Part shown: one piece after another, positions 18,950 to 44,809 of the stretch
How positions within the stretch are numbered: position 1 is the stretch's first letter
Layout: the number at the start of each line of letters is the position of its first letter
Assembly: GCF_000423525.1 (NCBI RefSeq)
Contig: NZ_AUID01000013.1
Coordinates: forward strand, 1 to 64,000
From: Proteocatella sphenisci DSM 23131
GTDB taxonomy: Bacteria; Bacillota; Clostridia; Peptostreptococcales; Filifactoraceae
Direction of reading: 5' to 3'
Length of the DNA stretch: 64,000 nt
Made by a program: the position numbers and the translations under genes
Notes under the pieces: model-generated
What the model saw: only the letters and a program-made list of their open reading frames with translations
Database searches by the model: none
Told to the model about the DNA's origin: nothing

Positions 18950-20260
18950 CTAGTCTTCAAATACTGTCTGAACGTGAACTTCTGTCTGTAGTGCTTTAAG
19001 TGCTCTAAGAACAAGTTTTCTTCTAAGTGCTTTTTCTTCTTTTGCATCCAGTGCAGGATTTCCAAGTGGATGAGGTATTGCTATAGCTGGGATTATTCTG
19101 TTTGCTCCAACTGTCAGAGATATAGGTACTACTGTACACATGTGAACTACCGGGATTCCCGCTCTTTCTATCTCTTTTACCATCGTTGCTCCGCAACGAG
19201 TACAAGTACCTCACGTAGATGTAAGTATTACTGCATCTACTTTTGCTGCAAGAAGGTCTTCTGCTATTGCTGCAGCGAATTTCTTAGAGCTTGCAACTGA
19301 TGTTCCATTTCCTACTGTTGAGTAGAAATAATCATGAAGTTTTCCTATAACGCCTTCTTTTTCAAGATCTCTTAGAACGTCAACTGGAATAACTCTGTCT
19401 GGGTCTTGATTTGCATAAACCGGGTCATGTCCACCGTGAGCAGTTTCATGATCAGCTTCTGTAAGATCATCGAATTTTGATATATCATATTTTCCATATT
19501 TTTGAGCAGAAGATGATTCTATTCTGTCAGGATTTCCCTTAGGAACAATACCACCTGAAGTAACTATTGCAATTTTAGCCTTTGACATGTCAATTATAGG
19601 CTGATTTGGAGCTACTCTGTCAAATGTTGGCATTGGATACTCTGTAGTGAATTCTTCACCTTTAAGTTTAGCAACAAGCATTTCTACAGCTCTTGTAGCT
19701 CCTCTTTTTGCATCAAACATATTAACACGTATTCCTCTTTCGATGTAGCCGCCTTCTGCAGGTGACCCAAGGTCTTCGCCCTTAATAACTTTAAGTGCAA
19801 AACCTGCCAGCGCTGGAAGTGCTTTTCTCATTCCTGCAGCTGAATCTGAAGTTCTTACTATATATAGTTGTTTTCTAAATACGTCTACACCTGGGTTTTC
19901 TTCGTACATTGCTGTTGCAACTTTAATTCCCAGTTCTTCTTGAACCATTGTAGCTACTGCGCCACAAGCCATTCCGTATCTTCCTGCATTAAATGCCGGT
20001 CCTGCTATTAGCATATCAGGGTTAGCCGATTTAATAAGTGCAAGTACCTGCTCTTTTGCAGTTTCAAGATTTTCATTGAAATAAGAGTCTCCACAAACTA
20101 CTGTTGCAACTATTTCAACTTCTTCTCCTAAATTCTTTTGAAGCTGTACACTTATTGGTGGCATACCTTCAAAAATGTGTGGTTCAGTTCCCGCTTTATC
20201 TTCTCCACCTATTCCAGCATAGAACTGGTTGATATAATGGACTACTCTCACTTTTCCCAT
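18950..20260 (-). CDS. grdB: Glycine reductase component B, selenocysteine-containing subunit
   Basis: A 436-residue selenoprotein of the glycine-specific component B. The frame is broken by TGA at 19213-19211, codon 350, the known selenocysteine position. The local motif is U-GT-C-TR-C (UxxCxxC). Reading on gives HMCTVVPISLTVGANRIIPA and the normal C-terminus. The selenol attacks the glycine imine bound to the pyruvoyl group of GrdE and passes the carboxymethyl group to GrdA. A SECIS-like hairpin lies at 19184-19198. A standard gene caller would split this gene in two. It follows grdA by 38 nt. Confidence 0.97.
19184..19198 (-). promoter_or_regulatory. Bacterial SECIS hairpin of grdB
   Basis: CGTTGC-GGA-GCAACG, a perfect 6-bp stem with a G-starting loop 18 nt after the TGA. 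UAC/GUA pairs can extend the base. This matches the spacing and loop rule for bacterial SECIS elements, which bind SelB. Confidence 0.8.
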
Positions 20261-24004: not shown

Positions 24005-24120
24005 TGTAGTACCAGAGTGTTGTCAGAATTAAGTCCTTTTACCTGAGAAATTCATTGAAAAATGGCATTTTTCAACTTGTCCCTTCGGTGACCCCGTGTG
24101 AGTACTCTCCCTAATCCGTC
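24005..24120 (-). ncRNA. Glycine riboswitch (single aptamer)
   Basis: On the minus strand the core reads GGGAGAGTACTCAC, CACCGAAGGGACAAG, TGAATTTCTCAGGTAAAAGG and ACTTAATTCTGACAACACTCTGG. CCGAAGG and CTCAGGTAAAAGGAC are the conserved glycine-aptamer joints. Only one aptamer is visible, rather than the usual tandem pair, although leader sequence upstream could form a helper stem. With the terminator after it, glycine should turn the grd operon on. Confidence 0.9.
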
Positions 24121-24173
24121 ATTCAACCTTATAATTAAGTTTTATATTTCCTATGAATAATATCTATATTGAT

Positions 24174-26830: not shown

Positions 26831-26844
26831 AGCTGTTTTAGTTA

Positions 26845-27822
26845 CTATTTTTCCATAGGCATGCTATCATCTGCCGACCATTCGTAGATTGAAGCCTCAT
26901 AGTTTCTTACTTTCTCAAAGCCAACTGCTCTGAGGACCGTGGACATATATCCAGATCTTATACCCATAGTTCAGTAAACAACAAAGTCATCTTCTGGCGT
27001 AACACCAAGATCACCCATAATTTGAATTATTTCTTCTGGAGATTTTGGAGTTGCATCTTCATTTAGAATAGATGACCACAACAAGTGCTTTGATCCTGTT
27101 ATATGACCACCTCTGGCTTCTCCTGACTTCTGACTGCCTTTATATTCACCCTCACTTCTTGCATCTATTATTACTGTTTTATACAGATTTTCATATACGT
27201 AATCTTTTGACGCTGAGTAGCTCTCATCAAAGTCCTTAAGTTCAAGGCCCTCAGATGGGATTGGTTCTGGAGAAACCTCATTTGTCACTTCATATCCAAG
27301 TTCTTTCCATTTTGGAAATCCCCCATAAAGTAATTTTACGTTTTCAAGTCCAGCCATTCTCATTTGCCAAACATTTCTTCCATCAGGACCTGGTCCAGGA
27401 AGAACATCTGAATAAAATACTACTGTTTTGTCATTAGTAACTCCATAAGACTCAAGTTTAGCTTTTAGCTGGTCTTTGTCAAGAGTTGTTCCCCAAAGCG
27501 GGTCTCCTGGTTTACCTTCCACATTTGAAAAAGAATGAAAACCAACTCCATAGGCTCCAGGAATATGACCTTTTGCATAAACGTCAGGTTTGTTTCCATC
27601 AAATATTATTACATTTGAGTCCCCCATTATTTCATTGAGTTCTTGAGGACTTATAAATAAGTCTCCATTTTCATAAATCGAAAGATCTGCCGCGAGTTCT
27701 GTAACTTTGCCTTCTGAACCTTGCCCACTGGATTCATCCGTGCCGCTGCATCCACTAAATATAAGCATAGATGCAAGTAAAAGTGACATTGCAATACTAA
27801 TTTTTCTTTTAACCAATTTCAT
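26845..27822 (-). CDS. Candidate selenocysteine-containing rhodanese lipoprotein
   Basis: A 325-residue protein with two rhodanese domains. The frame is interrupted by TGA at 26973-26971 (codon 284). The preceding residues are DDFVVY and the following TMGIRSGYMSTVLRAVGFEKV, then RNYEASIYEW, and TAG ends at 26845. In rhodaneses this is the CxxGxRS active-site loop, so selenocysteine replaces the catalytic Cys. Domain 1 (residues about 50-170) lacks a Cys at its equivalent loop (FYSDVLPGPG). The N-terminus is a lipoprotein signal with lipobox FSGC25, so it acts outside the membrane. GGTGGAGAG precedes the ATG at 27822. It overlaps the TVP38 gene by 14 nt. Gene callers would truncate it at 296 codons. 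grdA and grdB show the host decodes UGA this way. Confidence 0.85.
26941..26965 (-). promoter_or_regulatory. SECIS-like hairpin of the rhodanese selenoprotein
   Basis: GGGTATA (26965-26959) can pair with TATGTCC (26947-26941) over 7 bp including two G-U pairs, with an 11-nt loop that has G as its second base. It begins 5 nt after the TGA. The pairing is weaker and the loop nearer than in grdB, so it is only supportive. Confidence 0.5.
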
Positions 27823-28531
27823 TCTCTCCACCTTTATTTTTTTTCTTTGTATTTTTTTCATCCCAGACTTTTTTAATTAAAAACACTAGTATACTCATCG
27901 AAAACATCATCAAAAGCCCAAATACGAATTTCTTCATACCTCCGGTAAGCATACCTCCAATATAAGAATATATTATAGTAGCCGGGAGTTGACCTAAACC
28001 TGTAGCCCAAAAGAAAGACCAGAAGCTCATAGATGTAAGTCCTGCTGCATAACTCACTATATCAAAGGACATAAAAGGCAGAAGCCTTGCGATAAGTATT
28101 GCGTAATTACCGTACTTCTCAAAAAAATTATCTATTCCCTCCAGAGCAAACTTGCTTGAAAGCTTTTCCACCGCACTTCTTCCATAAAACTTTGCAATAA
28201 AGAAACACAATGCCGCTCCAGCCATTGCACTTGACCACGAGAGTATCGCGCCTTTTACCCACCCGAAGAGTCCAGCATTAGCAAATGTTATTAAAAATGC
28301 CGGCAACGGTGCCGCAATTGATTGAAATATCATTAGAAAAAATGATATTACAGGGGCCCAGATTCCAAATGACAGTATGTATCCTTTTACCAGCCCTACA
28401 TCTAAATTACTCATAATAAAAATAACCTGTTTAATGTTTTTTTGAACAGATTCAGAAAGCACATATACAAGTACTAATACGGCAACAAGACCTGTTTTAA
28501 GCATAATTGATCTTTTTTTATCAACATTCAT
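27809..28531 (-). CDS. TVP38/TMEM64 (DedA-like) membrane protein
   Basis: A 240-residue protein with about six hydrophobic segments. FQSIAAPLPAFLITFANAGLFG and FGRSAVEKL-type sequence, then LARLLPFMSFDIVSYAAGLT and the YSYIGG motif, are typical of the SNARE-associated/DedA (VTT) domain. Family members are linked to lipid scrambling or metal/selenite export, but their transported substrate is uncertain. It overlaps the next gene by 14 nt, so it is translated together with the selenoprotein. AAGGAG precedes the ATG. Confidence 0.82.
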   Translation of the reverse strand: MNVDKKRSIMLKTGLVAVLVLVYVLSESVQKNIKQVIFIMSNLDVGLVKGYILSFGIWAPVISFFLMIFQSIAAPLPAFLITFANAGLFGWVKGAILSWSSAMAGAALCFFIAKFYGRSAVEKLSSKFALEGIDNFFEKYGNYAILIARLLPFMSFDIVSYAAGLTSMSFWSFFWATGLGQLPATIIYSYIGGMLTGGMKKFVFGLLMMFSMSILVFLIKKVWDEKNTKKKNKGGENEIG

Positions 28532-28554: not shown

Positions 28555-28995
28555 CTATTTATATTTATTCTCAATTACAACTAAATATATTATTAGGAAA
28601 ATCTCAAAAATAAATATCGCAATTGAAGCAAATGTTATATATCCCGATGTGTTTAAACTCATAAAAAACCTGTTCTTTAAGCTCAGAACAGCAATACTGA
28701 CTGCCAAGATGGCCGCAACATTGTGAGTCCAAAGAATTTTTCCTTGTTTTACTATTTGCTTTTTTTTGCCAGAGACAATCTGGATAAAAATAGCAAATAG
28801 TATAATTGCTATTAATCCAAATGTTAGTATTTTAATGTTTTCTGGAGTAAAATATTTTTCGTTCCATTGTATTTTTCTTGCAAGGACATGATGATTTACT
28901 CCAGCTTTTTGTCCAGACATTGTCTCAAGTATAAATAGCAAAGCCACAACTGATACTTCAATAAAAATTACTGCTACATTTATTATTTTGTTCAT
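28555..28995 (-). CDS. Four-helix membrane protein of unknown function
   Basis: A 146-residue protein with four predicted transmembrane helices: VAVIFIEVSVVALLFIL, ILTFGLIAIILFAIFIQIV, NVAAILAVSIAVLSL and FASIAIFIFEIFLIIYLV. The polar loop between helices 1 and 2 has GVNHHVLARK with two histidines. I do not recognise the family. Its ATG overlaps the TAA of the rhodanese gene (TAATG), so translation is coupled. A membrane redox partner or anchor of the lipoproteins is possible. Confidence 0.7.
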   Translation of the reverse strand: MNKIINVAVIFIEVSVVALLFILETMSGQKAGVNHHVLARKIQWNEKYFTPENIKILTFGLIAIILFAIFIQIVSGKKKQIVKQGKILWTHNVAAILAVSIAVLSLKNRFFMSLNTSGYITFASIAIFIFEIFLIIYLVVIENKYK

Positions 28996-30353
28996 TACTT
29001 TACAGGTTCTCCTGTTTCTGAAGCAAGATCTGCATTTGACCATCCAATCCATCCGTCACTGTATAACGATACATCATTTAGACCTGCTACATTTGCATAG
29101 TAAAGGACTTCTGCCGCTCTCCATCCGCTTCCACACATAAACGAAAGATGATTTTGAGTGTTGATTCCTTCACCTTGCCACATTGCAATTATTTCATCTG
29201 CATTTCGCATAGTGTCATCTATATTTCTAAAATAATCAAGCGAGTTCGAATCGCTCTTTCCTGCATATCCAAAAACCGCTCCTGGAATACGTCCCATTTT
29301 ATCATGATAGCTGTATCCTGAAGTTTTTCCGATATATTCATCCCATGTTCTGTTATCAACAAGTGTAAAAGTTTCCGATGGAAGCATTTGTTGAAGCTCG
29401 TCTATAGTATCAATTATATCCGGATTACCAGGAAAATCTCCTCCAAAATCAGTTATCGATACCGGTTTGTTGGAGGTCGTTTCAAGTTCATATCCTGCCG
29501 AAGTCCATGCTGCGGCTCCTCCATTAAGGACACGTACATCCTCAACACCTGCATATCTGAGCACAAGTGCTACTCTGTAGGCTGCCATTTGCGCTCCACC
29601 GCTCACTACTACTGTATCATTCTTGCTTATTCCATTTTCAAGCATTACATTTAAGAGAGTTTCATCCTCTGCAAGCATCCACGATGGAGGCGGTTCAATT
29701 GAATCTGTATTTATATGAATCGCACCGGGAATATGGCCGTTTGCATACGATTCCTTTTCTTCTCCCCAACTCGCTTCTATCATCTTGACAGTTTTGCCCT
29801 CTGTGAATGTTTCTGGAGTATCCCCATCAATCAGATCTTTTACAATACTCGCAGGAACAAGCAGCTCATATCCTGGGAACTGAACCATTGGCTTGTTTTC
29901 ATCAGCTGCCCACTCTTTTACATCATATGTGTATATATTTTCATATCCTTTGGCTGAAAGATAATCTGCAACAGCCAGTGAATCCGCTGAGTTAGCGTCA
30001 TATAGAACTACATTTTTATCAGGAAGTATCCCTTTAGTTTCAAGAGCTTCCTGAAGCATCTCTTCTTTTCCTTCTTTCTCAACAAGAAGCCAATTCGCAG
30101 AAAAATCCACTGCGCCTTCTATATGTCCGCCTCTTGAAACTCCGTCAAGTGCCCAGCCATTGAAGGCATTATTGTCTCTGGCATCTACTATAACCCAGTT
30201 TTCATCATCCAAATTTCCATTCAGCTCCTCTGTTGATACGGTTTTGTATAAAGTTTTTTCAGGTTCAGCATCAGGAGCATTACTGCTGCAACCCGTAACA
30301 GCGAGCATTGAAGCTACTGAAATCGCAATTATTTTTAAAAATGTTCTTTTCAT
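28995..30353 (-). CDS. Three-domain rhodanese lipoprotein
   Basis: A 452-residue lipoprotein (signal KIIAISVASMLAVTGCSSN, lipobox VTGC22). Three rhodanese domains start near residues 40, 185 and 310. Only the third keeps a catalytic Cys (SFMCGSGWRAAEV). The first has YDANSADS and the second VVSGGAQMAAY at the equivalent loop. Inactive domains probably support folding or binding, as in tandem-domain sulfurtransferases. It is the first gene of the four-gene operon ending with the selenoprotein. It lies outside the membrane, so reduced sulfur or persulfide transfer there is an inference. Confidence 0.88.
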   Translation of the reverse strand: MKRTFLKIIAISVASMLAVTGCSSNAPDAEPEKTLYKTVSTEELNGNLDDENWVIVDARDNNAFNGWALDGVSRGGHIEGAVDFSANWLLVEKEGKEEMLQEALETKGILPDKNVVLYDANSADSLAVADYLSAKGYENIYTYDVKEWAADENKPMVQFPGYELLVPASIVKDLIDGDTPETFTEGKTVKMIEASWGEEKESYANGHIPGAIHINTDSIEPPPSWMLAEDETLLNVMLENGISKNDTVVVSGGAQMAAYRVALVLRYAGVEDVRVLNGGAAAWTSAGYELETTSNKPVSITDFGGDFPGNPDIIDTIDELQQMLPSETFTLVDNRTWDEYIGKTSGYSYHDKMGRIPGAVFGYAGKSDSNSLDYFRNIDDTMRNADEIIAMWQGEGINTQNHLSFMCGSGWRAAEVLYYANVAGLNDVSLYSDGWIGWSNADLASETGEPVK

Positions 30354-34661: not shown

Positions 34662-37600
34662 TTATACCATCTTTTCAAGATACTGCGCTATGCTTTTAAC
34701 CAACTTGTAATCTTGGAGTTTTCCAAAGTCCTTTTTCACTATGATCTTACCTTCTCTTGAAATAAATGAGATTGTATTCTTGTCTTTTACAATTTTTGCT
34801 ATCTTAAGTTTTTTACCAAGCGATCTAATGTAGGCTACTTCTATCAGCGCGCTTACTGAAAATGGCATATCCGAGAATCTATCTTCAATTTCTATTTCAA
34901 TATCCATCTTGTCTTCTTGATTAGATATGCTGGATATTTTTTTATATACCTCGATCTTATCCATCTCATTTTCTATATAGTCATTTGGTATATATGCATT
35001 CAATTTTATTGCCACTTCAGTTTCAGGTACATCTTCTTCTACAGTCTCACCTTTTAGTCTCATTATTTCTTGTTCAAGCATTTTTACATACATTTCGTAG
35101 CCTATATCTGCTATATGCCCATGCTGAGTTTCTCCAAGGAGTGTTCCTGCTCCTCTTATTTCTAAATCTCTCATTGCAACTTTAAATCCGGATCCAAATT
35201 CCGTAAATTCTTTTATGGTCTTAAGTCTTTTTTCTGATACTTCGGTTAAGACTTTGTCTTTCTCGTACATAAAATATGCATATCCTTGCCTTGAGCTCCT
35301 GCCCACTCTGCCTCTAAGCTGATATAGCTGAGAAAGACCCATTTTGTCTGCATCATATACTATCATTGTATTTGCGTTACTTATGTCCATACCAGTTTCT
35401 ATTATTGTTGTAGATATAAGCACATCATATTCTTTATTTGTAAATCCATTTACTATCTTTTCCAATTTTCTTGGACTCATCTGTCCATGCGCTACTGCTA
35501 TTCTGGCCGAAGGAACTATCCTTTGCAGCATTTGATACATTTTTTCTATAGTCTGTACACGGTTATATACAAAATAAATTTGGCCTCCCCTGTGTATCTC
35601 TCTTTCTATAGCATCTGCTATTATACTCTCCCTTGCTTCCATCACATATGTTATTATGGCTTGACGTTCTCTTGGCGGTTCTTCTAATAAACTCATATCC
35701 CTTATGCCACTGAGCGACATATGCAGTGTTCGCGGAATAGGAGTTGCCGAAAGACTTATTACATCTGAGTTAGTTCTGAGTTTTTTGAGTTTTTCCTTGT
35801 CCTTGACACCAAAACGCTGCTCTTCATCAACTACTATCAGTCCCAGATCTTTGAATTTTATGTCTTTTGAAAGTAATCTATGCGTTCCTATAACTACATC
35901 CACTTCACCTGAAGATATCTTTTCTATAATCTTTTCTTGATCTTTGGTAGTTCTAAACCTGCTTAAAACCTCTACTTTAATAGGAAAATTTTCAAATCTT
36001 TCTTTTATTGTATTGTAATGTTGTTGACTCAAGATTGTCGTGGGTACAAGAAATGCGCACTGCTTGGATTCCATACAAGCCTTGAATATGGCCCTGATTG
36101 CCACTTCTGTCTTGCCATACCCAACGTCTCCACATATAAGACGGTCCATTACCTTTTCGCTCTCCATATCGTTTTTAACGTCTTCTATAGCTCTTAGCTG
36201 ATCGTTTGTTTCTACATATGGAAAATCATATTCAAATTCTTTTTGCCATACAGTATCTTGTGAATATCTGTAGCCTTTGGTGTTTTCCCTTTTTGCATAT
36301 AACTCTACAAGGTCTTTGGCTATAAGTTCGATGATTTTCTTAGCTCTTGATCTTGTTTTTTTCCACTCATTACTACTTAGTTTACTAAGCTTTATTCCAT
36401 CTTCTGCAGAGTTTCCAATATATCTTTGGATTTTTGACATTTGTTCAAGAGGAAGGTATAGAGTGTCTCCTCCACCATATATTATTTTGATATAATCTTT
36501 TGTAATACTGTCAAATTCCTTCTGTTCCACTGCTACAAATTTCCCGATTCCATAATTTTCATGTACTACAAAATCTCCTGGTTTCAGTTCAATAAAACTC
36601 TCTATTTTACTTGTTTTAACTTTATCTTTGAATTTTCTGTCAGTACTTTTTGAAGTGTTAAATATTTCATTCTTTGTAAATATTGCCAGCTTATGCTTTG
36701 AATAAATTGACCCACCAGCAAAATACTCATCTGTAAATATTACATTTGAGTGCTCCGATTCTTGTGTGCCTATATTAATTCTTACAGAACCCACGTTATT
36801 TTCTTTCAGTGCTTTTTGAAGGTTTTTTGTAAACTCTTCATCTTTAAGTGAAATCAAAATCACATAGTCATTACTTCTTAGATACTTAAGCTCATTTATA
36901 AAGTCAAATATCTTCCCGTTAAAGACTTTAGCTTCTCTAGTTTCAAAATCAACTATTGCATCAACTGGAAAATCCTTTATAGAAGAAGTCACAGCTGTAT
37001 TGAAAATGTTTTTTTTCTCTTTTATTTTTTCCACCACATAAGATGGTGCCAGCAACAACTCACCTTCTCTTTTTATAGCAAAGCCTTTTTCTAGTGCTCC
37101 TTCAAAATTGTCACTGAATTCTTGATGAACATTCTCAAGTTTTTGAACTACCCTGTTAGGATCATTAACTTCAAAAAGAGAAATATCTTTTACATAATCA
37201 AATATAGTGTTTTCTCTGTCATAAAAATAATTGATATATTTTGAAACACCTTCAAAGTATATCCTGTTTTTAATTCTTTCCAGATCAAAAGATATGTCTT
37301 GATTAGTAACATCACTTATATCATCTTCAATTTCTTTAATTGCCTGTAAAAGATTTTGTGGATATATAAATGATCTTGCGGGAAGGATTTTTACTTTATT
37401 TACTTTTTCTATAGATTTTTGAGTGAAAATATCAAATATTCTTATAGAATCCACTTCATCGTCAAAAAGTTCTATCCTTACCGGATTCTCAATTCCTGGC
37501 GTAAATATATCTACAATTCCGCCCCTCATGGAAAACTGCCCTATACCTTCTACCTTGTGTTCTCTTACATATCCTGTATTTATCAATTTTTCAATCAATT

Positions 37601-38048
37601 GGTTTTTGTCTAGCACCTGTCCAAAAGCTATATCTTGGGAATTACTTAATATATACTCTTTTGGTACATATTTTTTTATAAGCGAATCCGAAGAAAAAAC
37701 TGCCAGATCGTAGTCATTGTTGGAAAGCTTGTAGAGACTTTCTACAAGTTCTGCCTCAAGTTTTCTATCTTTTGCTTCCACTGAGTAAAATCTAATATCT
37801 TCACTTTGTATATAGACTGAATTTATTCTTTTTTTTATAAAAGCATTGTGAAGTTTTTGTGCCTCTGCATCACTGTGAGTAATGACAGCATGTCTAATTC
37901 CTTTTCTTAAAAGAAATGAAGACATTTCCGATCTTTGATTTTCAATAAGTCCTGTGGCAAGCACTGATTTTTTTCCAGAATCTATATTATCAAGTATTTC
38001 TGTATACTCAATTGATGAGTCCAGTACTGCTTTTAAATAATTATTCAT
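34662..38048 (-). CDS. mfd: Transcription-repair coupling factor
   Basis: A 1128-residue SF2 translocase that removes stalled RNA polymerase and recruits UvrA. UvrB-like N-terminal part, an RNAP-interaction CarD-like domain (ELKPGDFVVHENYGIGKF near residue 490), Walker A LICGDVGYGKTEVA, DEEQRF box, the SATPIPRTL motif, and the QLRGRVGRSSRQGYAYF motif VI. Full length. It follows pth by 8 nt. Confidence 0.97.
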   Translation of the reverse strand: MNNYLKAVLDSSIEYTEILDNIDSGKKSVLATGLIENQRSEMSSFLLRKGIRHAVITHSDAEAQKLHNAFIKKRINSVYIQSEDIRFYSVEAKDRKLEAELVESLYKLSNNDYDLAVFSSDSLIKKYVPKEYILSNSQDIAFGQVLDKNQLIEKLINTGYVREHKVEGIGQFSMRGGIVDIFTPGIENPVRIELFDDEVDSIRIFDIFTQKSIEKVNKVKILPARSFIYPQNLLQAIKEIEDDISDVTNQDISFDLERIKNRIYFEGVSKYINYFYDRENTIFDYVKDISLFEVNDPNRVVQKLENVHQEFSDNFEGALEKGFAIKREGELLLAPSYVVEKIKEKKNIFNTAVTSSIKDFPVDAIVDFETREAKVFNGKIFDFINELKYLRSNDYVILISLKDEEFTKNLQKALKENNVGSVRINIGTQESEHSNVIFTDEYFAGGSIYSKHKLAIFTKNEIFNTSKSTDRKFKDKVKTSKIESFIELKPGDFVVHENYGIGKFVAVEQKEFDSITKDYIKIIYGGGDTLYLPLEQMSKIQRYIGNSAEDGIKLSKLSSNEWKKTRSRAKKIIELIAKDLVELYAKRENTKGYRYSQDTVWQKEFEYDFPYVETNDQLRAIEDVKNDMESEKVMDRLICGDVGYGKTEVAIRAIFKACMESKQCAFLVPTTILSQQHYNTIKERFENFPIKVEVLSRFRTTKDQEKIIEKISSGEVDVVIGTHRLLSKDIKFKDLGLIVVDEEQRFGVKDKEKLKKLRTNSDVISLSATPIPRTLHMSLSGIRDMSLLEEPPRERQAIITYVMEARESIIADAIEREIHRGGQIYFVYNRVQTIEKMYQMLQRIVPSARIAVAHGQMSPRKLEKIVNGFTNKEYDVLISTTIIETGMDISNANTMIVYDADKMGLSQLYQLRGRVGRSSRQGYAYFMYEKDKVLTEVSEKRLKTIKEFTEFGSGFKVAMRDLEIRGAGTLLGETQHGHIADIGYEMYVKMLEQEIMRLKGETVEEDVPETEVAIKLNAYIPNDYIENEMDKIEVYKKISSISNQEDKMDIEIEIEDRFSDMPFSVSALIEVAYIRSLGKKLKIAKIVKDKNTISFISREGKIIVKKDFGKLQDYKLVKSIAQYLEKMV

Positions 38049-41377: not shown

Positions 41378-44300
41378 ATGTCTCAAGAAATAAAGCAATT
41401 TAAAAAAGTAATGGTAGCAAACCGCGGAGAAATAGCCATAAGAATATTCAGGGCATTAACAGAACTTGGAATTAGAACTGTAGGAATTTATTCCAAAGAA
41501 GACAAATTATCCCTTTTCAGGACTAAGGCAGATGAATCTTACCTTATAGGAGAGAACAAGAGTCCTATCGATGCCTATCTTGATATGGAAGGCATCATAA
41601 GACTGGCAAAAAGCAAAAAAGTTGATGCTATACATCCTGGTTATGGATTCCTTTCAGAAAACCCTTTATTTGCAAAAATGTGTCGCGACAATGGAATCGA
41701 ATTTATAGGCCCTTCTGTAGAAACTATGGAGATGATGGGTGACAAGATAAGTTCAAAGAAAATAGCTGATATATGTGGTGTTCCCACTATTCCTGGAACA
41801 AAGGACGCTATAAAAACAGTAGAAGATGCTATAAGAATTGCCGAAGAAATCGGTTACCCCGTAATGGTAAAGGCTTCTAACGGTGGTGGTGGCCGCGGAA
41901 TGCGTATCGTAAGGTCAAGCAGCCAGATGCAGACAGATTTTCAATCTGCCATGAATGAATCTATAAAGGCTTTTGGCGATGACAAGATATTTATAGAAAA
42001 ATACCTTCATAAACCAAAACATATAGAAGTTCAAATCCTTGGAGATGCTTACGGAAACATAGTTCATCTTTATGAGAGAGATTGTTCATTGCAAAGAAGA
42101 CATCAGAAGGTGATTGAGTTTGCCCCCTCTATATCTCTTAAAGAAGATACAAAAAAGAAGCTCCTTGAGTCAGCTCTAAAACTTGCAAACCATGTAAACT
42201 ACAAGAGCGCGGGAACACTTGAGTATCTGGTTGATGAACAGGAAAACTTCTATTTCATAGAAATGAACCCTCGTATTCAAGTTGAACATACAGTTACTGA
42301 AATGATTACAGGAATAGACATTGTTCAAAGCCAGATTCTTATTGAAATGGGACATTCTTTAAAATCTGAAGAAATAAACATACAGTCACAAGAAGATGTA
42401 AAAGTTAATGGCTACTCAATTCAGTGCCGTTTGACTACTGAAGATCCTACAAAAGGTTTTATGCCTGACACAGGCAAAATTTCTGTTTACCGATCTGGTT
42501 CAGGATTTGGAATACGTCTAGATGGAGGAAACGGCTTTACCGGTTCAGAGATAACCCCATATTATGATAGTCTTCTAGTAAAAACCACTTCATGGGACAG
42601 AACTTTCCAGGGAGCGACTAGAAAAGTCATCAGATCCCTTAGAGAGTTCAGGATAAGAGGTGTTAAGACAAACACACCTTTCCTTATAAATGTGCTGAAC
42701 CACCCAAGTTTTATTGAAGGAAAATGTTATACTTCCTTTATAGAGGAAACAACAGAACTTTTTGATATAAAAGCCAGCAAAGACAGGGCCAGCAAGCTGA
42801 TTAACTTTATTGGTAATGTAACCGTAAATGAGCGTACTAATAACAGATTTGATGAAAGTATGATTAATATTCCTAAATTTGCAATCACAGATACACCTGG
42901 ATCTAGAGACTTGTTCCTTAAAATGGGTGCAAAAGACTTCACTCAGATGATCAAAAATGAAAAGAAGCTGTATATTACTGATACCACCATGCGAGATGCA
43001 CACCAGTCACTGATTGCTACAAGGCTTCGTACTCACGACATGGTAAAGATAGCCCCTTATGCAAACGAAGTATTTAAAGATACATTTTCTATGGAGACAT
43101 GGGGTGGAGCTACATTTGACGTAGCATACAGATTCCTCAAAGAATCTCCATGGGTAAGACTGCAAACACTAAATAAGCTCATGCCTAATGTGCTTCAGCA
43201 TATGCTCCTTAGATCTTCAAATGCCGTAGGTTACAAAAACTATCCCGACAATGTAGTTGCCGAATTTATCAAGCAATCTGCTGAAAGAGGAGTAGATGTA
43301 TTTAAAATATTTGACAGCCTTAACTGGATAGAGAACATGGAAAGACCAATCGAAGAAGCTCTAAAGACTGGAAAAATTGTCCATGGAGCAATATGCTACA
43401 CTTCAAACATACTTGATCCTAATAATACAAAATATACTACCCAGTATTATATAGAAAAAGCAAAACAGCTCGAAAGCATGGGAGTTCACATCGTAGGAAT
43501 AAAAGACATGTCAGGTCTGCTTAAACCTTATGCTGCAAAAGAGCTTGTAACTGCCCTAAAAAAAGAGCTTAATATCCCAATTGAAATCCATACTCACGAC
43601 TCTACCGGAAATGGGGTAAGTACAGTGCTTATGGCAGCAGAAGCAGGCGCAGATATAGTTGACTGCGCTATAGAATCAATGTCAGGACTTACAAGCCAGC
43701 CATCACTTAACTCTGTGGTTGAGGCTCTAAGACATACTCCTAGAGACACCGGCCTTGATATAGACAAACTTAATGAAATCAGCGCATACTATCTTGGCGT
43801 AAGAAACATATATTCAAAATTTGAGACAGAGTTAAAAACCCCTTCTGTTGAAATATATAAATATGAAATACCAGGAGGACAGTATTCAAACCTACTTCCT
43901 CAAGTTCAGAGTCTTGGTCTGGGAGACAGGTTCCAGGAAGTTAAAGCAGCATTTAAAGAAGCTAACGATCTTTTCGGTGATATAGTTAAAGTAACGCCAT
44001 CTTCTAAAATAGTTGGTGATATGGCTATATTTATGGTAAAGAATGACATCAACAAGGATAACATAATGGAAAAAGGAAAAGATGTCTCTTTCCCAGAGTC
44101 AGTTATAGAATATTTCATGGGATATATAGGCCAGCCTGAAGGCGGATTCCCTAAAGAACTTCAAAAACTTGTTCTTAAAGGTGCTACTCCAATTACCTGC
44201 AGGCCTGGGGAACTTCTTCCTCCTGAAGATTTTGATGCTATCAAAAAATATCTTGATGAAAATTATGATGGCAGAGGAAACTCAAGAAATGTAGTAAGTT

Positions 44301-44809
44301 ACTCTCTATACCCAAAAGTTTATGATGATTACTGCAAACATCTTGATCTTTATAACGACATAAGCAAGCTTCCGTCTAATGTGTTCTTTAATGGTCTTGA
44401 TGTCGGTGAAGAGGTCGATGTTGAAATAGAACCAGGTAAAGTACTCAACATGAAATTCCTTTCAATGAACGATCCTGATTCAAGCGGAATGAGAACGCTG
44501 AGCTTTGAAGTTAACGGTTCATCCAGAGAAACCGAGATCCTTGACCATTCAGTTGAGATCATCAAGTACGATGAAAGAAAAGTAGATTCTACAAATCCAA
44601 AACATATAGGTTCTCCAATTCCTGGAAATGTCGTTAAGATATTTGTAAAAGCAGGAGACGCTATCGAAGCCAATAAGCCAATAATGACTATAGAAGCTAT
44701 GAAAATGGAAACCACCGTACTTTCGAAGGCTAATGGCCTTATATCCGAAATACTTGTAAAAGAAGGTGACCGTGTTACCGATAATCAGCTTATAGCTACT
44801 TTAGAATAA
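41378..44809 (+). CDS. pyc: Pyruvate carboxylase
   Basis: A 1143-residue biotin enzyme that makes oxaloacetate from pyruvate, HCO3- and ATP. Biotin carboxylase domain: KVMVANRGEIAIRIFRAL, VKASNGGGGRGMRIV (ATP grasp), FIEMNPRIQVEHTVTE. Carboxyltransferase domain (about residues 530-800): TDTTMRDAHQSLIATRLRT and MSGLTSQPSLNS. Biotinyl domain at the C-terminus: IEAMKMETTV, with the biotinylated Lys in AMKM. GGAGG precedes the ATG. Ends at a bidirectional terminator. Confidence 0.97.
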   Translation: MSQEIKQFKKVMVANRGEIAIRIFRALTELGIRTVGIYSKEDKLSLFRTKADESYLIGENKSPIDAYLDMEGIIRLAKSKKVDAIHPGYGFLSENPLFAKMCRDNGIEFIGPSVETMEMMGDKISSKKIADICGVPTIPGTKDAIKTVEDAIRIAEEIGYPVMVKASNGGGGRGMRIVRSSSQMQTDFQSAMNESIKAFGDDKIFIEKYLHKPKHIEVQILGDAYGNIVHLYERDCSLQRRHQKVIEFAPSISLKEDTKKKLLESALKLANHVNYKSAGTLEYLVDEQENFYFIEMNPRIQVEHTVTEMITGIDIVQSQILIEMGHSLKSEEINIQSQEDVKVNGYSIQCRLTTEDPTKGFMPDTGKISVYRSGSGFGIRLDGGNGFTGSEITPYYDSLLVKTTSWDRTFQGATRKVIRSLREFRIRGVKTNTPFLINVLNHPSFIEGKCYTSFIEETTELFDIKASKDRASKLINFIGNVTVNERTNNRFDESMINIPKFAITDTPGSRDLFLKMGAKDFTQMIKNEKKLYITDTTMRDAHQSLIATRLRTHDMVKIAPYANEVFKDTFSMETWGGATFDVAYRFLKESPWVRLQTLNKLMPNVLQHMLLRSSNAVGYKNYPDNVVAEFIKQSAERGVDVFKIFDSLNWIENMERPIEEALKTGKIVHGAICYTSNILDPNNTKYTTQYYIEKAKQLESMGVHIVGIKDMSGLLKPYAAKELVTALKKELNIPIEIHTHDSTGNGVSTVLMAAEAGADIVDCAIESMSGLTSQPSLNSVVEALRHTPRDTGLDIDKLNEISAYYLGVRNIYSKFETELKTPSVEIYKYEIPGGQYSNLLPQVQSLGLGDRFQEVKAAFKEANDLFGDIVKVTPSSKIVGDMAIFMVKNDINKDNIMEKGKDVSFPESVIEYFMGYIGQPEGGFPKELQKLVLKGATPITCRPGELLPPEDFDAIKKYLDENYDGRGNSRNVVSYSLYPKVYDDYCKHLDLYNDISKLPSNVFFNGLDVGEEVDVEIEPGKVLNMKFLSMNDPDSSGMRTLSFEVNGSSRETEILDHSVEIIKYDERKVDSTNPKHIGSPIPGNVVKIFVKAGDAIEANKPIMTIEAMKMETTVLSKANGLISEILVKEGDRVTDNQLIATLE

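Follow-up and report, generated by a model that had tools for sequence, protein, structure and literature searches.

Two-domain rhodaneses containing selenocysteine (Sec) have been predicted since 2005, when three Sec-containing COG2897 sequences were described from the Sargasso Sea (PMC1088965), and the preliminary description of the present locus was right to mention such proteins from metagenomic surveys. In the GOS data, as the table was read, Sec occurs in eight cd01449 sequences and one COG2897 sequence (PMC2398784), and a 2026 review distinguishes five rhodanese forms, two of which (forms 2 and 4) carry UxxG (PMC13188914). Two NCBIfam families, NF041203 (rhodanese_LYCAU) and NF045694 (TsoB), are likewise rhodanese-related selenoproteins, and ExtH (NF040901), from a selenite/tellurite cluster of Geobacter (PMC5877670), is rhodanese-like. 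No rhodanese is named among the eight predicted selenoprotein genes of the Eubacterium acidaminophilum genome (PMC4056300), nor does one appear in a table of eight C. sticklandii selenoproteins, and the titles and abstracts listed by searches of open-licence literature yielded no Sec rhodanese lipoprotein of Clostridia and no DedA-linked one.

Here we describe a gene of Proteocatella sphenisci DSM 23131, located in a 64,000-nucleotide stretch of contig NZ_AUID01000013.1 (positions 1 to 64,000; hereafter, the window), which on comparative sequence grounds is very probably a selenoprotein gene with UGA 284 read as Sec. Its product shares with the marine COG2897 proteins the predicted combination of this sulfurtransferase type with Sec and the UxxG motif ("form 4" of the review). 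The marine proteins are metagenome sequences and were compared by description only, whereas the present protein comes from the Bacillota, has a lipobox and a DedA neighbour, and belongs to a clade with Sec in all 17 of its tree rows. Sec two-domain rhodaneses as such were thus predicted before; new are the lipid anchor and the DedA neighbour (as far as a comparison with the marine proteins by description goes), the Bacillota clade and an unusual hairpin.

No NCBIfam model scored above its cut-off for the window protein. Its assignment to either NCBIfam seleno-rhodanese family was rejected, with NF041203 at 26.2 of 115 bits and TsoB not listed at E ≤ 0.001; NF008557, consulted for 3-mercaptopyruvate sulfurtransferase (MST), scored 59.4 of 250 bits. 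The similarity to ExtH was weak (37.2 of 200 bits, below the cut-off), and no ext neighbours were recognised beside the gene. Four solved two-domain sulfurtransferases (1uar, 3aay, 3hzu and 1e0c) share the whole fold and the position of the catalytic loop, but have Cys in place of Sec and are ~26–32% identical over the aligned part. The nearest non-Sec relatives are eight Cys rhodanese lipoproteins of the same order (L015, L072–L075, L077, L078 and L080), 36–40% identical, which also adjoin a DedA gene orthologous to that of the window, but which have a catalytic Cys, form at most six of the nine hairpin pairs, and have DedA downstream rather than upstream.

Gene structure and conservation of the in-frame TGA

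The reading frame contains a single in-frame TGA (Table 1), situated in the rhodanese active-site loop between DDFVVY and TMGIRSG, just where it had been reported. The frame does run on past the TGA to a normal stop, as claimed, but this stop, a TAG, follows after 41 sense codons and not the 43 counted earlier. By eye, the start codon is preceded by a AGGTGGAG stretch; a second in-frame ATG lies upstream, at 27861.

Table 1. Features of the Sec-rhodanese locus, in window coordinates
Feature	Position	Strand	Basis
Sec-rhodanese lipoprotein gene, 325 aa with TGA read as Sec284 (predicted)	26845..27822	-	frame and orthologues
TGA at catalytic position, predicted to be read as selenocysteine	26971..26973	-	20 genomes share the codon
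SECIS-like hairpin of 9 pairs with a 4-nt loop and one bulged pyrimidine, +14 to +36 from the TGA	26935..26957	-	
Signal peptide and lipobox-like sequence, last residue Cys25	27748..27822	-	
N-terminal rhodanese domain (loop VFYSDVLPGPG), no catalytic Cys	27301..27651	-	
C-terminal catalytic rhodanese domain with Sec284	26872..27204	-	
DedA/VTT membrane protein, conserved neighbour, 14-nt overlap with start of Sec-rhodanese gene	27809..28531	-	
Terminator-like hairpin, 20 pairs, 16 nt past the full-length stop codon	26782..26828	-	
165-aa hydrophobic protein, same strand, possibly on the Sec-rhodanese transcript	28555..29052	-	
EanB/YnjE-like lipoprotein with three rhodanese domains and Cys loop CGSGWR, possibly on the same transcript	28995..30353	-	

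In the order, 393 genomes were searched at E ≤ 1e-40 and 40 had matches; the best match had one in-frame TGA in 17 of these, the genome of P. sphenisci included, and in G514 a second TGA copy was present besides the best match. At the level of the phylum, 18 of 398 genomes had matches and four the TGA (again including P. sphenisci), which added three genomes from outside the class. Among 391 genomes drawn across the class, 15 matches reached E ≤ 1e-20, with the TGA in the P. sphenisci genome only. The total is 20 genomes with a TGA rhodanese, not all of one class, whose proteins are 53–76% identical to the window protein. All 20 have the TGA at the identical codon, followed by TMGIRS (motif UTMGIRS) and a conserved C-terminus. 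Because the same TGA recurs in 20 genomes, the suspicion that it might be a misread TGC can be set aside, and sequencing error or a pseudogene was rejected for the same reason; since the related genomes show the same arrangement, the gene represents a real enzyme group. The L009 and L010 loci appear to be those of genomes G391 and G514 (the last 400 nt of the gene are identical). The L010 genome carries a second 3′ part of the gene, encoding the same protein sequence, on a different contig (L011, 1–547; C23 of G514), which reflects either duplication or an assembly artefact. In L071 (G608) the N-terminal part of the Sec rhodanese is missing from the frame, which looks like a frameshift. A plasmid search returned 234 records, every one below 60% identity.

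At the TGA column of a 31-row alignment, 4 rows have U and 27 have C, all 27 non-TGA homologues thus having Cys as a Sec codon would lead one to expect, and in 28 aligned rows the column is invariant when TGA is read as C. Conservation past the TGA, which the preliminary description had proposed as a check, is evident both in the motif and in the substitution rates: dN was 0.07–0.15 and dS 0.46–1.26 after the TGA (six pairs of four sequences), as compared with 0.11–0.28 and 0.82 to saturated over the 44 codons before it. The in-frame UGA is therefore followed by a frame under selection up to a normal stop, and Cys homologues align at it, both of which are features of selenoprotein genes.

Selenocysteine machinery and use of TGA

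A selenoprotein gene is also expected to be accompanied by SelA, SelB, SelD and tRNA-Sec. The P. sphenisci genome contains selA, selB and selD matches above their curated cut-offs and one tRNA-Sec above the gathering score. The three genes are adjacent (G000:C4:36213-40537), and the selD match itself has one in-frame TGA. Among the 19 other genomes with the Sec rhodanese, 18 have a tRNA-Sec above the cut-off; G391, with no match above the cut-off, is 88% complete and in 820 contigs. Because tRNA-Sec is equally present in all 25 tested genomes whose matches carry Cys and never TGA, it does not separate Sec from Cys genomes.

The window also holds grdA, a known selenoprotein gene type, and grdB, and both do contain the in-frame TGA ascribed to them (20640-20638 and 19213-19211, respectively). 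Rfam matched SECIS_4 on grdB (19173-19210, reverse strand) and called no SECIS on grdA in the window. A glycine riboswitch (24021-24122, reverse strand) lies near the thioredoxin/glycine-reductase genes. TGA does serve as a stop codon, though rarely: among 31 window genes chosen by eye, one ends in it. Of the mechanically called open frames longer than 150 codons, 9 of 49 end in TGA, two of these being the grdB and Sec-rhodanese TGAs. With a TGA stop in one of those 31 genes and zero in-frame TGA in long genes such as those at 34662-38048 and 41378-44809, a reassigned genetic code was rejected.

A covarying hairpin after the TGA

RNAalifold, applied to 13 sequences, drew a helix pairing positions +14 to +22 with +27 to +36 after the TGA, as well as a second helix at columns 41–59. 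Over 16 distinct 66-nt segments, 96.5% of the 144 cells of the first helix were paired and 6 cells were changed on both sides. The paired fraction, the both-side changes and the covariation score were reached by none of 500 shuffles; 122 of 500 reached the count of double-changed pairs (two) and 35 of 500 that of further pair types. Related sequences can beat shuffles of this kind without any structure, and slid versions of the helix were used as a second control; these were 21–44% paired. Pair 21/28 is A-U in 11, C-G in 2 and U-A in 2 and is broken once (A-G, L066), and pair 18/31 is U-A in 11 and A-U and C-G in 1 each and is broken three times (A-A; L067, L070 and L088). Of these four bases, 18 and 21 occupy the third place in Ser and Gly codons and their partners, 31 and 28, the first place in theirs, so that it is the synonymous base that follows its partner.

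The helix distinguishes the two types of gene, with 7–9 of the 9 pairs formed in the 18 Sec rows tested versus 1–6 in 24 Cys rows; energies run from −5.3 to −10.8 kcal/mol in the former and from 0 to −5.3 kcal/mol in the latter, touching at −5.3. In 17 Sec genes, synonymous-codon identity over the 20 codons after the TGA was 0.72, against a mean of 0.52 for 20-codon windows, and the six best such windows begin at −1 to +8, so that the peak coincides with the hairpin. An invariant GG lies at +19/+20, inside the stem. The folding energy of 50 nt was no better than that of shuffles for the window (z −0.20) and L009 (z −0.06) and better for L010 (z −2.75). Since single-sequence folding energy is uninformative for the window, it is covariation, pair counts and synonymous conservation that support an RNA element.

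The published bacterial SECIS model calls for an apical loop of 3–9 nt, a stem of 4–16 bp, a spacing of 16–37 nt and a minimum free energy (MFE) of at most −7.5 kcal/mol, and the same source places a subset of bacterial SECIS elements outside it (PMC13188914). In geometry the present hairpin agrees with the model, having a 4-nt loop, 9 pairs with one bulge and a spacing of 22 nt, and the MFE of its 29-nt stretch is −8.5 kcal/mol in the window, although 5 of 18 rows (L061, L063, L065, L066 and L070) range from −5.3 to −6.5. The G that the model places in the apical loop is absent, +23 and +24 being AT or AC in all 20 Sec rows, and a scan for any alternative hairpin fitting the model found none in 15 of the 20, the window included. 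The same scan found a good candidate in grdB and none in grdA. A known Rfam SECIS was rejected, as region 26840-27060 has zero family matches at E ≤ 1. The SECIS check suggested earlier has yielded a covarying hairpin after the TGA, but one that does not conform to the published model; because its loop without G does not fit, a standard search would probably miss it.

Protein architecture and active site

Pfam rhodanese PF00581 matched in two stretches, and the presence of two rhodanese domains with the catalytic residue in the C-terminal one is as in COG2897. The protein had been called a lipoprotein, with which its signal peptide and lipobox-like FSGC ending in Cys25 agree; a relaxed lipobox pattern is found in 19 of the 20 Sec rows (L071 is incomplete), the fit being loose for FSGC itself and for ASAC in L067 and SAGC in L088. 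An AlphaFold2 model (mean pLDDT 89.4, pTM 0.84) places residues 284–325 within the folded domain, with the active-site loop, a helix (288–300), a strand (305–307) and a second helix (311–317) from the TGA onward. The best structural matches, in the Foldseek list too, are two-domain sulfurtransferases aligned over residues ~43–325, with Z up to 33.5 over 261–277 residues among the first 13 rows. Structures of thiosulfate sulfurtransferase (TST), MST, EanB and YnjE lie within ~3 Z units of one another, and the fold therefore does not choose the reaction. Nor does the loop point to a particular sulfur donor: published motifs are CG(S/T)G for MST and C(R/Y)(K/H)G for TST (PMC3276061), and UTMG matches neither.

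The loop of the N-terminal domain has no Cys, and Cys25, predicted to bear the lipid, and Sec284 are the only Cys or Sec residues of the window protein, which favours sulfur-transfer chemistry. Five full-length relatives (L009, L010, L058, L060 and L062) likewise have no Cys past the lipid Cys, besides the Sec, so that an internal Sec–Cys couple is impossible in these six proteins. In 13 of the 20 Sec rows there is at least one further Cys past the lipid Cys, and in all 13 one lies in a DCN motif of domain 1.

Phylogeny and gene neighbours

The 17 Sec rows of a 41-row tree grouped in one clade with support of 100/100 and zero Cys rows inside. The P. sphenisci genome also encodes a Cys paralogue, 36% identical, which groups among the Cys rows. 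A DedA gene directly precedes the rhodanese gene on the same strand in 15 of the 18 Sec loci that could be assessed, the window included, its products being 65–82% identical to that of the window; for this count the G417 locus was seen in L082, and L067 and L069, which end too early, were left out. The three assessable loci with no upstream DedA are L068, L070 and L071. Among the 17 Cys rows nearest the Sec clade, DedA lies downstream, on the same strand and within ~0.5 kb, in eight (61–71% identical); a ninth with a downstream DedA, L081, is cut by the locus end. Eight further Cys loci from the phylum search include three with DedA downstream (L092, L094 and L096; 48–60% identical). In the loci examined, the gene order thus goes with the residue, DedA being upstream with Sec and downstream with Cys. 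A second, distant DedA (27–30% identical to that of the window) lies downstream of the Sec-rhodanese gene in L061, L063, L064, L065 and L066.

Two further genes may share the transcript (Table 1). The three-domain rhodanese gave long matches to EanB (E 5.8e-75) and YnjE (E 6.8e-69), and the 165-aa protein has zero Pfam or NCBIfam matches. Neither is found in the 5.0 kb upstream in L010 or the 6.5 kb upstream in L082, and the 165-aa protein was seen in no locus outside the P. sphenisci genome; most of these loci include ~1.5 kb of flank.

Discussion

The selenoprotein reading is supported by the Cys homologues, the conservation after the TGA, the recurrence of the TGA in 20 genomes and the covarying hairpin. 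We propose that SelB and tRNA-Sec decode UGA codon 284 as Sec under the direction of the hairpin that follows immediately, giving an exported, lipid-anchored two-domain rhodanese. Its N-terminal domain would be a non-catalytic partner, and Sec284, in the U-x-x-G-x-R-S loop, would most likely serve as a nucleophile, accepting sulfane sulfur on its selenium from thiosulfate, a persulfide or polysulfide, or a similar donor and delivering this sulfur to an acceptor at the membrane's outer face, perhaps working with the co-encoded DedA/VTT membrane protein. In the simplest reading the sulfur atom would be carried on Sec, comparable to the persulfide of Cys rhodaneses. Rhodanese and MST are debated as selenium carriers (PMC8538045), and selenium carrying is a possible second role of this protein. 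We judge the full explanation, an exported and lipid-anchored Sec rhodanese with sulfur transfer on the outer side of the membrane, to be probable; we do not rate it higher because the structures do not separate the kinds of sulfurtransferase and because most Sec rows have further Cys.

The main competitor accepts the selenoprotein but would assign Sec284 to redox chemistry (peroxidase activity, or reduction of disulfides, selenite or tellurite) or to selenium binding instead of sulfur transfer. Predicted selenoproteins mostly resemble thiol oxidoreductases (PMC9312934), rhodanese and MST are able to bind selenium (PMC8538045), and the similarity to ExtH, weak and far below the cut-off, and the further domain-1 Cys in 13 of 20 Sec rows point in the same direction. 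Against this, sulfurtransferases are the best matches in both sequence and fold, and the internal Sec–Cys couple is lacking in the window protein and the five relatives named above; on balance we consider such a function less probable than sulfur transfer. A very improbable alternative is that a near-cognate tRNA reads the UGA without selenium and the hairpin merely stimulates readthrough. The hairpin does lack the loop G of the SECIS model and has zero Rfam matches at E ≤ 1, but grdA fails the same model scan, the UGA position is the catalytic Cys in 27 of 27 Cys homologues, and the Sec machinery is present in the genome. Least credible of all is that the TGA is a true stop yielding a 283-residue product, with the remainder a relic or sequencing error, for although TGA stops are occasionally used in this genome (1 of 31 genes, by eye), the TGA and the downstream frame are conserved in 20 genomes with dN far below dS, a protein cut short there would lose its catalytic residue together with two helices and one strand of the AlphaFold2 model, and the terminator-like hairpin comes after the full-length stop.

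Returning to the Sec rhodanese with a sulfur-transfer role, we put forward as a tentative and rather doubtful extension that the Sec-only clade of lipid-anchored rhodaneses and its dedicated DedA/VTT protein may form an extracytoplasmic sulfane-sulfur (or selenium) unit, and that its UGA may be decoded through a distinct class of SECIS in which the invariant GG of the stem replaces the G of the apical loop.

Our analysis places selenocysteine in predicted membrane-anchored sulfur-transfer proteins of the Bacillota, with orthologues in 20 genomes, and offers a test case for predicted Sec rhodaneses in an organism whose own genome encodes a Cys paralogue. A hairpin that covariation supports but the SECIS model does not accept could be the reason that genes of this kind escape detection or are annotated as truncated. 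Work on DedA subfamilies noted DedA–rhodanese fusions, describing the connection as unclear (PMC10127716); the loci described here link a sulfurtransferase-like protein to DedA proteins by gene neighbourhood.
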